64,000 bases of DNA from Micromonospora zamorensis (GTDB taxonomy: Bacteria; Actinomycetota; Actinomycetes; Mycobacteriales; Micromonosporaceae): assembly GCF_900090275.1 (NCBI RefSeq), contig NZ_LT607755.1, positions 4,650,001-4,714,000 on the forward strand, written 5' to 3'. The notes below the pieces were generated by a model. The model was not told where the DNA came from, made no database searches, and worked only from the letters and a program-made list of their open reading frames with translations. This document shows positions 49,587-60,934 of this stretch, piece by piece. Numbering within the stretch: position 1 is the stretch's first letter; each line of letters starts with the position of its first letter. The position numbers and the translations under genes were made by a program.

Positions 49587-52472
49587 TCAGATCAGCCGCA
49601 ACTCGCGCGCCCGCCGGACCGCCTCGCGCCGGCGGGTCGCGTCGAGTTTGCGGTAGATGTTGCGGACGTGGGTCTTCACCGTGTTGACCGAGAGCGACAG
49701 TTCGCTGGCGATCTCCACGTTGGACAGGATGCTCTGCAGGTAGCGCAGGATGGTCAGCTCCCGCTCGGTGAGCGGCTCGTCGAGCGTGTCCCTCGGCTCG
49801 GCGGCGGGGCGGGCGGTGCTCCTGCCGGCTCCCCGCACCAGGTCGCTGACCAGCGCGAAGTGCGCGGTGCCGGCGTCCAGGTGGGCGGCCAGCAGGTCCC
49901 GCACGGGTGGTTCGGCGCGGGTGAAGACCCGTCGACAGCCCTGCGGCCCGGCCAGGTCCAGCACCTGCTCCAGGATCCGGCCCGCCCGCCGCCCGTCGCC
50001 GGCCCGCTCGGCCAGCAGGGCGTCCAGCAGCCCCGCGTCGAGGCGTACCGGCAGGGGCCAGGAGGTGGCCGCTGGTGACTGCCAGCCCGGAAGGGCGCGC
50101 CCTGCGGCAGCGGCCTCACCGGCCAGCAGCTCCACCTTCGCCGCCGCGACCGCGAGGACGGGTTCGCTCGCGCCGACCAACAGGTCGCGGGCGGCGTCCA
50201 GGTCACCCCGCTCGGCGCGCAGTTCGGCCTCGGCGGCCCGCAGCAGGCCGGCCAGCTCGGTCGCGGACGGCCGGTCGGCCAGCGCCTCCCGGGCCCGGAC
50301 GAGCAGTCGTTGCCCGGCTGCCGGGTCGCCGGAGTCGCGGTGCAGCTTTGCCCGGCACAGCGCGGCCACCGTCGCCGCTACCGGTTCGTCGGCAGCGGCG
50401 GCCGGCCAGTCGTCGCCCGCATCCGTCTCGAGGCCGGCGATCCAGCCGCCGACGATGCCGAGGGCCGGGCCGGCGAGAGCGAGGTTGGCGGCAGCCTCCT
50501 CGGGCTGGTCGCGGAGCTGCGCCACCAGGGCCAACGCCAGGTACGCGTAGGCGCAGTCGAGCCGACAGGACCAGCCCCGACAGGGTGGCATCCCGAGCGC
50601 GTCCCGAGCCGCCTGCTCGGCCGCCCGCAGTTCGCCGCGCACCGCGAGCAGCAGCGCGGCACGGCTGGCGCCGACCAACTCGGTACGCGGACGGCCGGCC
50701 TCGCGCGCCGCCGCCCGGGCCCGGACGAACCGGGCGGTCGGGAGTGCGCCGTCGGCCAACTCGACCAGCCCGAGGGCGGTGCCGGTGAACGCTCTCAGGT
50801 CCGCGTCGTCGGCCGCGCCTCCCCCACCGGCCGTCGGGGCGGAGCTGGCCGCTCCGGTCGGCGCGGAGTCCGGCACACGGGTCGGCGTGGCGCCCGCAGG
50901 GCGGGTTCGCAGCAGTCGGGCGGCGGCGGCCCGGACCTCCGCCGGGTCGCCGGAGAGGCGTGCCACGCTTACTTCCAGCGCCGTGACCAGGCGTAGGAAC
51001 CGGTCCCGCCGCGGCACGGGCAGACCAGCGGCATGGTCGGCGGCCGAGCGCAGGTGGCTGCTGGCGGCCGGCAGATCACCGGCGTACGCGCGCTCGGCGG
51101 CGCAGGCCAACGCCACCTCCGGGTCGGCGCGGATCACCTCCGCCGGCGGGCTCATGGGGGCGGGGGCGTGCACCGGGTCCCGGTCGTACCGGGTCAGTTC
51201 CGGCCAGTGCGCGACGAACAGGTCGCCGGCCAGGTCCCACCGGCCGGCGGCCAGCGCGTGCCGCAGACCGTCGGCCGGCCGCCCGTCCTCGGCGTACCAG
51301 TCGGCGGCCCGTCCGTGCAGGTCACGGAGTTCGTCGGGGGGCAACCGGGCCAGGTCGGCGCGGAGCAGGTCGGCGAGCAGGGGCTCGCAGCGGTACCAGG
51401 GTGGGCGGGTGTCCTCGCGGTGCAGCAGGCCACCGGTCCCGGCCAGGGCGGCCAGCACCTGTGCGGCGTCGGCCCGACCGGTCAGCGCCTCAGCCAGGTC
51501 GGCGCAGACGGTGTCGACGATGGCCGTCCGGCGCAGCAGATCCTCCTCGGCCGGGTCGAGTGCGGGGAGCACCTCCTCGTGCAGGTAGCCGGCGATCTCC
51601 GGCTGGTCACCGCCGAACTGCCCCACCCAGCGCTCCGGGTCGGGCTGCCCGCGCACCGCCAGCGCGGCGATGCGCAGCGCGGCCGGCCAGCCTCCGGTCC
51701 GGTCGCGCAGCTGGTGCACGGCGGCTGCCGGTAGCGCGGCGGCGTGCGCGGTGAGCAGGTCGGCCACCTCGTCGTCGGTGAACGCCAGCTCGTCCGGGCC
51801 GATCTCGGTCAGCTCTCCGGCGAGGCGTAGCCGGTGCAGGGGCAGGTGCAACCCGGCCCGCGCGCCGATCACCAGGCGCAGCCGCCGCTCGGCATGTCGC
51901 AGCAGGAACTCCAGGCCGGTCAGCGCCGCCGGGTCGGCGACCCGGTGCAGGTCGTCCAGGACCAGCAGCACCGGCCGGTCCGCGGCGGCGAGCGTGGCGG
52001 CCAGCACCTCCAGCTGCTCCGGGCGCGGCGGCCGGTCCGGCAGCGGGCCGTCCTCCGCCGACCCGGTCGCCGACCGCAGGGCCGCCGCGAGGTACGCCCA
52101 GAGCCGGTCGCCGTCGTCGCCCACCTCCACGGACAGCCACGCCGGGACCGGGCGGGCCTCGGGCGGCACCGACAGGTCGCCGGAGTCGGGCACGACCCCG
52201 CCCGGCTCGACGTCGGGCTCAGCACCGCCCAGCCGTACCCAGGAGGCGAGGAGCGTGGTCTTGCCCCAGCCGGCGGGAGCAGCGATCAGGGTGACCGGCC
52301 CGGCACTGCCCTCGTCCAACCGGCGCAGCAGTCGGGGCCGGGCCACCACCGGCTCCGGCGGCACGGCCGGAGTCAGCCGGGACGCCAGCAGCGGAGACTC
52401 CGCCGGACGCCCCGGTGCCGTATCGACCTGTCGTGCGGTTTCGACCCGTACGCGATTCCGCTGTTCCGGCAC
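49587..52472 (-). CDS. LuxR-family ATP-dependent regulator (LAL/MalT-like)
   Basis: A 961-residue signal-transducing ATPase. Walker A is IAAPAGWGKTTLLASWVRLG near residue 65. Walker B is VLLVLDDLHRVADPAALTGL near residue 165. The middle is a long helical repeat region (about 350-890) resembling MalT/TPR arms. The C-terminal LuxR helix-turn-helix has LTERELTILRYLQSILSNVE and SLSVNTVKTHVRNIYRKLDA. Such proteins sense a small molecule and activate promoters. It starts at GTG 52472, divergent from the 52618 gene, with the composite motif between them. It may be the regulator of the stress genes here. Confidence 0.9.
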   Translation of the reverse strand: MPEQRNRVRVETARQVDTAPGRPAESPLLASRLTPAVPPEPVVARPRLLRRLDEGSAGPVTLIAAPAGWGKTTLLASWVRLGGAEPDVEPGGVVPDSGDLSVPPEARPVPAWLSVEVGDDGDRLWAYLAAALRSATGSAEDGPLPDRPPRPEQLEVLAATLAAADRPVLLVLDDLHRVADPAALTGLEFLLRHAERRLRLVIGARAGLHLPLHRLRLAGELTEIGPDELAFTDDEVADLLTAHAAALPAAAVHQLRDRTGGWPAALRIAALAVRGQPDPERWVGQFGGDQPEIAGYLHEEVLPALDPAEEDLLRRTAIVDTVCADLAEALTGRADAAQVLAALAGTGGLLHREDTRPPWYRCEPLLADLLRADLARLPPDELRDLHGRAADWYAEDGRPADGLRHALAAGRWDLAGDLFVAHWPELTRYDRDPVHAPAPMSPPAEVIRADPEVALACAAERAYAGDLPAASSHLRSAADHAAGLPVPRRDRFLRLVTALEVSVARLSGDPAEVRAAAARLLRTRPAGATPTRVPDSAPTGAASSAPTAGGGGAADDADLRAFTGTALGLVELADGALPTARFVRARAAAREAGRPRTELVGASRAALLLAVRGELRAAEQAARDALGMPPCRGWSCRLDCAYAYLALALVAQLRDQPEEAAANLALAGPALGIVGGWIAGLETDAGDDWPAAAADEPVAATVAALCRAKLHRDSGDPAAGQRLLVRAREALADRPSATELAGLLRAAEAELRAERGDLDAARDLLVGASEPVLAVAAAKVELLAGEAAAAGRALPGWQSPAATSWPLPVRLDAGLLDALLAERAGDGRRAGRILEQVLDLAGPQGCRRVFTRAEPPVRDLLAAHLDAGTAHFALVSDLVRGAGRSTARPAAEPRDTLDEPLTERELTILRYLQSILSNVEIASELSLSVNTVKTHVRNIYRKLDATRRREAVRRARELRLI

Positions 52473-54238: not shown

Positions 54239-55435
54239 ATGGCTGGGGAGCGAACGTACGACGTGGTGCTGTTCGGGGCGACCGGGTTCACCGGGGGCCT
54301 GACCGCTGAATACCTGGCCCGGCACGCGCCGCCGGGGCTGCGCTGGGCGCTGGCCGGGCGCGACTCGGGCCGCCTCGCCGCCGTCCGGGACCGGCTGGCC
54401 GCGACCGACCCGACGTTGACCGACCTTCCGCTGCTCACCGCCGACGTGACCGACGCGGCCTCGCTGCGCGCCGTCGCGGAGAGCGCCCGGGTGGTGGCCA
54501 GCACTGTCGGCCCGTACGTCCACCACGGGGAGCCGCTGGTCGCCGCCTGCGCCCGGGCTGGCACCGACTATCTGGACATCACCGGTGAGCCGGAGTTCGT
54601 CGACCTGATGTATGTGCGCCACCACGCCGAGGCGGCCCGCACCGGCGCGCGGCTGGTGCACGCCTGCGGGTTCGACTCCATCCCGCACGACCTGGGCGTC
54701 TGGTTCACCGTCAAGCAGCTGCCCGCCGACGTGCCGATCACCGTGGACGGTTACGTGCGCGCCGGTGGCCGGTTCTCCGCCGGCACCTACCACTCGGCGC
54801 TCACCGCGTTCTCCCGTACCGGGCAGGCCAGCCAGGCCGCCCGGGACCGTCGGGCGGTCGAGCCGCGCCCCACCGGCCGCCGGGTGCGGGCGGTGCCCGG
54901 CCGGCTGGGCCGCTCGGCGGAGCTGGGCATCTGGACCGTGCCGCTGCCGACCATCGACCCGCAGGTGGTCCGCCGCTCGGCGGCGGCCCGCCCGGAGTAC
55001 GGCCCGGACTTCCGTTACCGGCACTTCGCGGCCGTGAAGCGGCTGCCCACAGTGCTGGCCGGCGCGGTCGGGCTCGGAGCGGTGGTCGGGCTGGTGAAGC
55101 TGCCGCCCAGCCGACGGTGGCTGCTCGGCCGGCTCGCGTCCGGGCAGGGGCCCACCGCCGAGCAACGGGCGGCGTCCTGGTTCCGGGTCCGGTTCGTGGG
55201 CACCGGCGGCGGGCAGCGGGTGGTCACCGAGGTGGCTGGCGGCGACCCCGGTTACGACGAGACGGCGAAGATGCTCGGCGAGTCGGCGCTGTGCCTGGCG
55301 CTCGACGAGCTGCCGCAGACTGCCGGTCAGGTCACCCCGGTCGCCGCGATGGGTGACGCGCTGCTCGACCGGCTCGTCCGGGCCGGGCTCACCTTCCGGG
55401 TGCTCAAGCAGGACACGGCGGAGCACTCGGCTTGA
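54239..55435 (+). CDS. saccharopine dehydrogenase-like (trans-acting enoyl reductase) family protein
   Basis: A 398-residue oxidoreductase. The Rossmann motif is VVLFGATGFTGGLTAEYLAR at the N-terminus. VASTVGPYVHHGEPLVAACA and GTDYLDITGEPEFVD follow, then HACGFDSIPHDLGVWFTVKQ, the classic stretch of this family. It matches the mycobacterial Rv2953 / Rv2449c type, some of which reduce enoyl groups in lipid synthesis. The C-terminal part (LPTVLAGAVGLGAVVGLVKL) has a membrane-associated stretch. The substrate is unknown. ATG 54239 follows CTCTGGGG. Confidence 0.86.
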   Translation: MAGERTYDVVLFGATGFTGGLTAEYLARHAPPGLRWALAGRDSGRLAAVRDRLAATDPTLTDLPLLTADVTDAASLRAVAESARVVASTVGPYVHHGEPLVAACARAGTDYLDITGEPEFVDLMYVRHHAEAARTGARLVHACGFDSIPHDLGVWFTVKQLPADVPITVDGYVRAGGRFSAGTYHSALTAFSRTGQASQAARDRRAVEPRPTGRRVRAVPGRLGRSAELGIWTVPLPTIDPQVVRRSAAARPEYGPDFRYRHFAAVKRLPTVLAGAVGLGAVVGLVKLPPSRRWLLGRLASGQGPTAEQRAASWFRVRFVGTGGGQRVVTEVAGGDPGYDETAKMLGESALCLALDELPQTAGQVTPVAAMGDALLDRLVRAGLTFRVLKQDTAEHSA

Positions 55436-55460
55436 CCCTCGACCGGGTCGAGGGGGCAGG

Positions 55461-56543
55461 ATGCCCAGCGTGAGCGACCTGCACAGCATCGGTGAGCTGG
55501 CGAGGGCCAGTGGCCTGACCGTCAGCGCCCTGCGTTTCTACGACTCGGCGGGGGTGCTGGAACCGGCCCTGGTCGACCCGGTGACCGGCTACCGCTGGTA
55601 CACCGATGAGCAGATCGCCCCGGCCCGGCTGGTGGCCGGGCTGCGCCGGATCGGCATGCCGGTGCCGGAGATCGCCGCCGCGGTCCGCGCCGAGCCGGCT
55701 GCGGTGCACCGGTTGCTCGACACGCACCTGCGCCGGTTGGTCGACGGGCTGGCCGACGCCCGTCGGGAGGTGACCCGGCTCCGGGCGCTGGTCGACCCGG
55801 CCCAGCCGAGCACCACCACGCTGCTGCTCTCCCCCGCCGACCTGGCGGCCGCGCTCGACGCGGTGCGCTTCGCCGTCGGCGCGGACCCGGAGATGCCGAT
55901 GCTCTGCGGCGTGCTGCTCGACGTGGAGCCCGACGGTGTCCGGCTCGTCGCCACCGACCGGTACCGGCTCGCGTTGGCCCGCTCCCGGGCCGACGTCGAC
56001 GGTCCGCCGGTGCGGGTGTTCGTCCCCGTGGCCCTCGTCGACCAGCTCCGGCCGCTGCTCGACGCCGCCGACGCCTGGCCGGTGTCGTTGACAGTGGCGG
56101 GCGCGGACCTGCGGGTGCTGGTGGCCGACCGGACGCTGACCGGCACCGCCCTGCCGTACGACTTCCCGGACTACCGCCGGTTGCTGCGCAAGGCCGTCGG
56201 CGAGCGGCCCACCGCGCGCCGGATCACTGTCGACGTGGCCACGCTGCGCGCCGCGTTGGCCGACCCGGCGGCCCCCACCGTCGCCCGCGACGACGACGGC
56301 ACGGCCCGGGAGGTCACCGTGCTCGGCGTCGACGACCAGGGCGGTCTTCGGCTGCTCCCCGCCGCCGACCTGGACAGCGACGCGCTGCGGGTCGGGGTGG
56401 ACGGTCGCTACCTGCTGGACGCGTTGAACGCGGCCGGCGCGCCGCAACTGGTGCTGGAGCTGGACGGGCCGATCTCCCCGCTGGCCCTACGCCGACCGGA
56501 CGACGCGGACACCTACTCGGTGCTCATGCCGATCCGGCTCTGA
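55461..56543 (+). CDS. MerR-family regulator fused to DNA sliding clamp (DnaN) domains
   Basis: A 360-residue fusion. Residues 7-75 are a MerR helix-turn-helix (SIGELARASGLTVSALRFYD and GYRWYTDEQIAPARLVAGLR), and 85-112 a coiled coil. Residues 120-360 match the second and third domains of the beta sliding clamp: MLCGVLLDVEPDGVRLVATD, RYRLALARSRADVD and LPYDFPDYRRLL. TVDVATLRAAL follows, and the end is YSVLMPIRL. The clamp's first domain is missing and is replaced by the MerR part. It might respond to, or interact with, DNA replication or clamp-binding partners; this is inference. ATG 55461 follows GAGGGGGCAGG. Confidence 0.88.
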   Translation: MPSVSDLHSIGELARASGLTVSALRFYDSAGVLEPALVDPVTGYRWYTDEQIAPARLVAGLRRIGMPVPEIAAAVRAEPAAVHRLLDTHLRRLVDGLADARREVTRLRALVDPAQPSTTTLLLSPADLAAALDAVRFAVGADPEMPMLCGVLLDVEPDGVRLVATDRYRLALARSRADVDGPPVRVFVPVALVDQLRPLLDAADAWPVSLTVAGADLRVLVADRTLTGTALPYDFPDYRRLLRKAVGERPTARRITVDVATLRAALADPAAPTVARDDDGTAREVTVLGVDDQGGLRLLPAADLDSDALRVGVDGRYLLDALNAAGAPQLVLELDGPISPLALRRPDDADTYSVLMPIRL

Positions 56544-59467: not shown

Positions 59468-60934
59468 CTACTCGGCCTTGGCGAGGCGCAGAGCCAGCTC
59501 CGGGCACACCTTGACGGCCTTCAGCGCGCCTTCGCGCAGCCAGGTCGGCACGGGGGTGGGCGGGAAGGCGGGGTATCCGTTCGCGTCGAGCCGGATGAAG
59601 TCCGGTACGACGTGCGCGCAGAGGCCGTGCCCGTCGCAGCGCGACCAGTCCAGGGTGAGCTTCTGCGGGTTCTCGTCGGGTGCGCCCGGCAGCCCCATCA
59701 CGCCCTTGACCCGCCGCCCACAGCCGTCGCCGGTGCTGTGCAGCCGCAGGTCCTCGGCGAAGACCTCGATCGCGGAGAGCGCGAACCGGGCGGTGCCGTC
59801 CGGGTGACTGCACGCGCCCCGGCCCTTCACCTCGCCGGCGGCGGCTCGCACCACGTCCGCCGGTTGGCTGCCGGCCACGGCCAGGTCCACGGCTCGGGCC
59901 AGGTCCGGCAGGCCCATCTTGCACGGCCCGCACTGGCCGGCGGACTCCCCGGCCAGGTAGCGCACCACCTGGGCGGCCTCACCGAGCGGGCAGGTGTCGA
60001 CGCCGAGCGGGATGATGATGCCCGCGCCGAGGGTGCCGCCTACCGCGGCCAGGCCCTTGCGGGAGACCTCGGCCGTCTCCGCCGCCTCCGGGGTGATCCA
60101 CTTGCCGTGGTAGCCGCCCATCAGGATGCCCTGAATTTCCGGCACCTCGCACAGGTCGAGGACGTCGCGCAGCGGCATGCCGGCGGTGCACTCGACCACC
60201 GCCGGCCGGCCCGCCGCGCCGGTCACGGTGAGCAGCACGGTGCCCGGCTCGTCGTCGGTGCCGAGGGCCGCGTACTCGTACGGGCCGAGTCGGGCGCCGA
60301 CGGCGAGCTGGGCGTACGTCTCGGCGTTGGAGAGCAGGGTGGGCAGGCCACTGACCCCGGAGTCGCTGGAGCGCTTCTTGGTGCCGGGCGGGATGTGCGG
60401 CAGCCCGTTGATCCCGTTGACCAGTGCGCCGCCCTCACCGGAGATGAACCGGTGCGGCACTGTGACGATCGTCGTCTGCACCGGCATCCGGCGCTCTTCG
60501 AGCGCATCCATCAGCGAGTCCCGGCCGACCCCGTCGTCCGCCACGCCGATCACGATCTCGTCGGCGTCCAGCGCGTACGCGGCCAGCGCCGCCCCGTCCA
60601 GGATCAGGTGCGGCGCGCGGGTCAGCAGCACCTTGTCCTTCCAGCTGGCCGGCTCCCCCTCGGTGGCGTTGACCACCACCACGGCGGCGAGGTCCTGCCG
60701 CTCGCAGGACTCCAGCACCGCGCGCAGTTTGCGGGCGAACGGGAAACCCGCTCCGCCCTTGCCCTTGAGCTGCATGCCCTCGGCAAGCCGGAGCAGCTGC
60801 GCCGGCTCCATCGGGCCGATCGGTCCGTGCACCTCCTCGTGCGCGAGCAGGTCGAGTCGGCCGTACTCGGCGAAGCCGGCGGTGAGCCGGGGCTCGCCCA
60901 CACAGGCGACCGGTGGCACGGCGGTACGCATCAC
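59468..60934 (-). CDS. NuoF-like NADH dehydrogenase flavoprotein with ferredoxin tail
   Basis: A 488-residue fusion. The first 380 residues resemble the 51-kDa subunit of complex I: the FMN/NADH region reads LKGKGGAGFPFARKL and VVVVNATEGEPASWKDKVLL. The iron-sulphur motif is ESAGQCGPCKMGLPDLARAV, with a later cysteine in GEVKGRGACSHPDGTARF; the first of the usual four cysteines is alanine. The last 75 residues form a ferredoxin domain (SRCDGHGLCAHVVPDF and AVKVCPELALRL). It could take electrons from NADH in the cytoplasm. Its start overlaps the membrane protein stop by ATGA. Confidence 0.88.
   Translation of the reverse strand: MMRTAVPPVACVGEPRLTAGFAEYGRLDLLAHEEVHGPIGPMEPAQLLRLAEGMQLKGKGGAGFPFARKLRAVLESCERQDLAAVVVVNATEGEPASWKDKVLLTRAPHLILDGAALAAYALDADEIVIGVADDGVGRDSLMDALEERRMPVQTTIVTVPHRFISGEGGALVNGINGLPHIPPGTKKRSSDSGVSGLPTLLSNAETYAQLAVGARLGPYEYAALGTDDEPGTVLLTVTGAAGRPAVVECTAGMPLRDVLDLCEVPEIQGILMGGYHGKWITPEAAETAEVSRKGLAAVGGTLGAGIIIPLGVDTCPLGEAAQVVRYLAGESAGQCGPCKMGLPDLARAVDLAVAGSQPADVVRAAAGEVKGRGACSHPDGTARFALSAIEVFAEDLRLHSTGDGCGRRVKGVMGLPGAPDENPQKLTLDWSRCDGHGLCAHVVPDFIRLDANGYPAFPPTPVPTWLREGALKAVKVCPELALRLAKAE

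Follow-up and report, generated by a model that had tools for sequence, protein, structure and literature searches.

A MerR-type regulator with half a sliding clamp as its putative sensor and a predicted regulon that includes the clamp gene

A gene in the window (the whole stretch of 64,000 nucleotides of Micromonospora zamorensis DNA analysed here) encodes a MerR DNA-binding domain joined to domains II and III of the DNA sliding clamp, an architecture that profiles and a structural model place practically beyond doubt. We describe the product as a putative MerR one-component regulator with a half-clamp sensor, whose predicted regulon includes dnaN, the clamp gene itself. In the model that we consider somewhat better than an even proposition, ligand docking in the clamp half would induce the regulator, efflux, a TPR-like partner and, in Micromonospora, dnaN.

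Domain architecture and distribution of the fusion

The gene and its domains are laid out as follows, with residue numbering that follows the start chosen in the initial annotation (ATG 55461).

55470..56543, plus strand: coding sequence, stop included; 357 residues from a likely leaderless GTG start, judged from promoter geometry
55485..55688, plus strand: MerR DNA-binding domain, residues 9-76 (Pfam)
55695..55793, plus strand: long helix, residues 79-111 (model secondary structure)
55830..56171, plus strand: clamp domain II, residues 124-237, with pocket segment TDRYRL at 165-170
56172..56540, plus strand: clamp domain III, residues 238-360, with pocket segment MPIR at 356-359

Pfam places MerR_1 at residues 9-76 (E 2.2e-12, above cut-off), with another MerR match at 9-47, and DNA_pol3_beta_2 at residues 124-237 (E 4.7e-13, above cut-off); DNA_pol3_beta_3 matches residues 303-359 at E 7.4e-6, scoring 26.2 bits against a cut-off of 27. 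The NCBIfam DnaN model TIGR00663 aligns its positions 122-367 with residues 116-360 (E 1.2e-21) at 77.1 bits, where the equivalog cut-off is 137.65, and a sequence search of the PDB leads to clamps (E 1.1e-16). An AlphaFold2 model built from a 52-row alignment (pLDDT 91.0, pTM 0.79) has clamps as its best 50 listed Foldseek matches and in all 50 VIA-align rows, most of which cover only residues 115-360. The long helix that follows the DNA-binding domain in this model, residues 79-111, we take to be the dimerisation coiled coil familiar from the MerR family. Clamp domain I is absent, as the fold alignment spans E. coli residues 122-366 only and a weak Pfam DNA_pol3_beta match sits on domain II, not on domain I; no GyrI-like or TipAS effector domain was found by Pfam up to E 1.

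The initial annotation had read a MerR-clamp fusion lacking domain I from the letters alone, and both parts of that claim are borne out by the profiles and the fold alignment: the modelled effector half resembles clamps rather than an unrelated ligand-binding fold, the motifs and neighbours are as it described, and the next gene is indeed serS (Pfam Seryl_tRNA_N and tRNA-synt_2b). Its open reading frame, 55461..56543, stands as to frame and needs revision as to start, because the predicted -10 hexamer (55457-55462) extends into ATG 55461-55463, which makes a leaderless GTG at 55470 the likelier initiation codon.

Actinobacteria commonly carry proteins of this domain composition, judging from the 120 matches listed of 2028 and 861, whose names include "DNA polymerase III subunit beta family protein" and "MerR family transcriptional regulator"; none of the entries listed by a literature search of open-licence papers names a MerR-clamp fusion. 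At E <= 1e-25, 111 of the 200 genomes in the family sample have a match, and these represent 16 of its 44 genera; one listed Micromonospora, G312, has no match at that threshold. The class sample yields near-full-model matches in 19 of 246 genomes and partial ones in two, and most of its remaining matches cover the DnaN part alone or the MerR part alone. In a tree of the clamp part, 59 fusions form one group separate from 31 actinobacterial DnaNs (support 0.855) and comprise clade A, which contains the M. zamorensis protein (support 0.993), and clade B, from Nocardia, Streptomyces and others (support 0.609), the two being about 32% identical.

Two further MerR fusions were observed by eye in the same genome: one whose C-terminal half resembles a PP2C-type protein phosphatase (L002 1042-2274, minus strand; G000:C1 near 2902749) and one whose MerR domain is followed by HEAT-type repeats (L004 1414-2574, plus strand; G000:C1 near 2613169). 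Elsewhere in the window, 49587-52472 on the minus strand encodes a 961-residue LuxR/MalT-like regulator (GerE and AAA_16 above cut-off, TPR_MalT below), and 59468-60934, also minus, combines Nuo51-type FMN, NADH_4Fe-4S and ferredoxin domains in a single chain.

Docking pocket and ring interface

The clamp pocket is the docking site of partner motifs, according to a portion of PMC11139829, whose listing supplied the 18 columns that we followed when mapping the 59 fusions and 31 true DnaNs onto E. coli DnaN in an alignment that is gappy in domain III. Across the fusions, retention in these columns is 0.71 versus 0.32 in conservation-matched columns, with p at the floor of 2000 draws. Subsite I is retained in clade A (0.77) and clade B (0.81) alike; subsite II is retained in clade A (0.77), whereas in clade B it stands at 0.32, no better than matched columns, so the clade B ligand may differ from that of clade A.

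The residues of the ring tell the opposite story. Every one of the 31 DnaNs has an acidic residue at the positions of E. coli E298 and E304, where the fusions almost never do; K198 is basic in all 31 DnaNs, in 7% of clade A and in no clade B fusion, and I272 is replaced or deleted in the fusions. Against this trend, V occupies position 273 in the 31 DnaNs and persists in 27 of 30 fusions of clade A; in clade B the position is deleted. Among basic DnaN columns R245 is still basic in the fusions, as is K235 in clade B, and fusions and DnaNs show no clear difference in the net charge of domains II-III. Compared with DnaN, then, the fusion shares the fold of domains II and III and the pocket residues, lacks domain I, carries a MerR domain and has mostly lost the ring-interface and channel-charge residues.

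These alignments indicate that the docking pocket has very probably been kept while the ring interface was lost, and that the effector half is more likely a peptide or drug receptor than a ring. The suggestion that it might bind clamp-interacting peptides thereby gains ground, as pocket residues are selectively kept in 59 relatives. The companion suggestion of ring formation loses it: E298, E304 and K198 are lost or deleted and I272 is replaced or deleted, even though V273 persists in clade A. A regulator that closes into a ring or slides along DNA would accord with the clamp fold, yet domain I, which provides the other half of each interface, is missing along with the interface and channel-charge residues, and we regard such a clamp variant as scarcely credible.

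Own promoter and predicted regulon

The putative promoter of the gene comprises three elements.

55432..55437, plus strand: -35 hexamer TTGACC, identified from the sequence; TTGAC in 68 of 68 aligned relatives
55436..55454, plus strand: predicted operator, a perfect 9-1-9 dyad, CCCTCGACC-G-GGTCGAGGG, identified from the sequence and kept across relatives
55457..55462, plus strand: -10 hexamer CAGGAT, 19 bp from the -35

Most of the dyad lies within the 19-bp spacer (55438-55456); the TGA stop of the upstream gene (55433-55435) falls within the -35 hexamer, and the promoter as a whole (55432-55462) stops 7 nt short of the GTG. A sigma-70 scan limited to spacers of 16-18 nt found no promoter here. 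MerR regulators work on overlong spacers that often hold a strong palindrome, as passages of PMC8113463, PMC1526738 and PMC11049809 describe. We fetched 80 fusion loci (L131 being a second fusion of G016), of which 68 were aligned, the remainder comprising 11 missed or low-scoring in gene picking and one without an anchor. A MerR-type promoter is present at 68 of 68 aligned relatives from both clades and at 11 of the 12 others, hence at 79 of 80, the sole exception being L133, near a contig end, where it was not found. Among named loci the count is 56 of 57, which omits L056, whose N-terminus lies beyond the contig; L063 failed the start rule only. A strong dyad marks the clade A promoters; those of clade B have a weaker one. 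Throughout 1.03 Mb of fusion loci, both strands included, just one further place exceeds 24 bits, in L125, where it overlaps the regulator's own palindrome opposite an ABC-transporter-like gene. This is strong sequence evidence, and the gene almost surely has a MerR-type promoter of its own. In L125, near 6000, the divergent ABC-transporter ATPase gene shares the palindromic promoter, and other exporter types may belong to the regulon.

Scanning the M. zamorensis genome with the 22-nt pattern at up to 3 mismatches returned 15 rows, compared with 0 for the reversed control, and a matrix scored only three places above 20 bits: the own promoter (42.8 bits), C1:2823293 (35.0 bits), which precedes the gene of a 158-residue TPR-like protein, and C1:6312357 (35.2 bits), which precedes an MFS transporter gene. 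The transporter matches MFS_1 and MFS_3, with drug-exporter models below their cut-offs; its site, G000:C1:6312357, is close to the origin region, at a distance of about 33 kb from dnaN. At no more than 1 mismatch, 20 Micromonospora genomes yield 35 sites, and each of them lies ahead of the regulator (14, of which five were assigned by place), an MFS gene (9, including one, behind L286, whose match is confined to the first 22 residues), dnaN (7) or a TPR gene (5); at 2 mismatches further likely sites mingle with chance matches within genes. Beyond Micromonospora, 19 of 22 regulator-bearing genomes have sites with at most 1 mismatch; merging two opposite-strand rows of a palindromic site reduces 39 rows to 37 places, namely 18 own promoters, 10 TPR genes (assigned by profile), 6 MFS genes (by BLAST or Pfam) and 3 that are neither. 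Strong sites in 18 clade B genomes are mostly own promoters; in addition, sites precede TPR genes in both G138 and G037, and the latter also has one before an MFS-like gene. The TPR and MFS genes are not all leaderless. From the position of these sites, the exporter, the TPR gene and dnaN are highly probable targets, none of which the initial annotation had anticipated.

Could the operators serve another MerR paralog, with the fusion acting at its own promoter only? Some other MerR genes in distant genomes do have similar promoters of their own (L314, L320). Against this, no other MerR locus of the M. zamorensis genome lies near a predicted site, clade B genomes carry the clade B form of the site before TPR and MFS genes (L300, L302, L317), and the clade A site occurs in none of 20 regulator-less family genomes, a control that used the clade A pattern only and 20 of the 89 genomes without a match. 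The site positions and the regulator-less genomes thus make a paralog a very unlikely user of the operators. The genes beside the regulator were also considered as its regulon and set aside: immediate neighbours differ from genus to genus, and transporters are not clearly enriched, occurring at position +1 in 7 of 69 loci and at other positions in 2-5 of 67-69. By eye, the regulator adjoins an apparent replicative helicase gene, dnaB, in one locus (L175 5980-8795).

The dnaN element was scored with a matrix built from regulator promoters only. Of 31 Micromonospora loci, 29 have it in the dnaA-dnaN interval with a score above 20 bits, 688-704 bp upstream of dnaN and oriented towards it, whereas ten shuffles of each locus gave maxima of at most 4.6 bits; the exceptions are G312, which lacks the regulator, and G015, which has it. 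None of 29 dnaN loci from other genera contains the element. Its conservation is 0.85, versus 0.48 in the flank before it and 0.64 and 0.62 in those after it, and the M. zamorensis copy is weak (22.9 bits, first hexamer TGGACT). The gene upstream is dnaA in L140 and L368, and DnaA-box-like repeats lie downstream. All 29 elements have a start codon after the -10; since the open reading frames behind this codon range from 46 to 217 residues, we rejected a conserved leaderless small protein and take the codon for a transcription start. The element may serve dnaN expression or origin activity, its sequence fitting either. Elsewhere, no operator lies near two additional dnaN genes, one whole (G157) and one with a stop (G224). 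The former (G157:C1:8288276-8289418, L372) is about 65% identical to that genome's own DnaN and is possibly of the griR/mypR kind.

Of 19 clade B loci, 9 have the TPR-like gene as the next gene after the regulator, with a 4-bp overlap in four of these pairs, and in one, from a distant genome, MerR, clamp half and TPR share a single 540-residue frame (L171 5461-7083, minus strand). No such adjacency occurs among 50 clade A loci. The model of the TPR-like protein is all-helical and TPR-like (pLDDT 88.2); Foldseek returned one match at E <= 0.001, to a designed protein, with other TPR matches weak. The protein is likely a physical partner of the regulator. Its predicted co-regulation, adjacency and single fusion would also suit an arrangement in which the clamp half is only a scaffold, the pocket holding the TPR protein or a fixed peptide and the signal arriving via the TPR-like partner or via a ligand site elsewhere; the loss of subsite II in clade B points the same way. 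We consider that arrangement improbable: no clamp-binding motif was seen by eye in the TPR family, and the strict retention of subsite I is also suited to an open docking site.

Proposed mechanism and significance

Returning to ligand docking as the inducing event, we propose that a MerR dimer would sit on the dyad inside the 19-bp spacer of its own and a few target promoters, and that a peptide-like ligand, most likely a clamp-directed natural product of the griselimycin or mycoplanecin type, would dock in the clamp pocket. The ligand-bound dimer would then distort the promoter such that RNA polymerase starts; that ligand binding activates transcription is quite likely by analogy with the MerR family. 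The output would be more regulator, the MFS exporter and the TPR-like partner and, in Micromonospora, transcripts that begin at the dnaA end of oriC and run towards dnaN, yielding more clamp. Griselimycin binds the clamp pocket between domains II and III, and mycobacterial resistance to it depends on amplification of the dnaN-ori region (both from sections of PMC5694481). Mycoplanecins bind DnaN, and their gene cluster has a second dnaN thought to confer self-resistance, as an extract of PMC10817943 relates. Efflux and extra target would make a matching inducible response to clamp-directed antibiotics, and we lean slightly towards such an antibiotic, rather than a peptide made by the cell, as the ligand.

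The main rival to an antibiotic sensor is a sensor of the cell's own clamp clients, whose pocket would bind the clamp-binding motifs of polymerases, the clamp loader and repair proteins, and which would report clients in excess of clamp, or replication stress, and raise dnaN. This is a distinctly less probable explanation, consistent both with the pocket being where partner motifs dock (in the part of PMC11139829 drawn on above) and with the dnaN-linked operator in 29 of 31 Micromonospora. It leaves the exporter in the predicted regulon hard to account for, and the dnaN site is missing from other genera. More speculatively, the protein could be a clamp-occupancy switch at the replication origin, which would read the competition of clients and drugs for clamp pockets and drive transcription that enters oriC from the dnaA side and continues into dnaN.

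Among known systems, the antibiotic-sensor model is closest to BmrR, TipA/SkgA and EcmrR, which share a MerR domain, a long helix, a C-terminal sensor, a 19-bp-spacer promoter (described in the papers on spacers cited above) and, as predicted here, an exporter among the targets and autoregulation (for SkgA/TipA, the abstract of PMC7762955). The sensors of BmrR and TipA are GyrI-like or TipAS domains, where the fusion has half a sliding clamp, and unlike drug-sensing MerR regulators the fusion has dnaN among its predicted targets. The DnaN paralogs griR and mypR (for mypR, the same extract of PMC10817943) are likewise second clamp-derived proteins tied to clamp-directed antibiotics; they are whole clamps that replace the target, whereas the fusion is a regulator.

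BlaR1/MecR1-type sensors resemble the fusion in that their sensor domain is related to the class of protein bound by the drug, and differ from a MerR one-component regulator in their membrane protease relay. As a transcription factor that reads what state the clamp pocket is in, a clamp-derived sensor would be without precedent to our knowledge. A genuine dnaN promoter would mean that clamp dosage can be regulated from the origin region, and if the tentative occupancy switch holds, one protein would couple clamp supply, origin activity and the export of clamp-directed compounds. Should the antibiotic-sensor model prove true, it would offer a reporter for the discovery of clamp ligands and reveal how soil Actinobacteria detect peptide antibiotics that target the clamp, compounds of a class that has been studied against tuberculosis.
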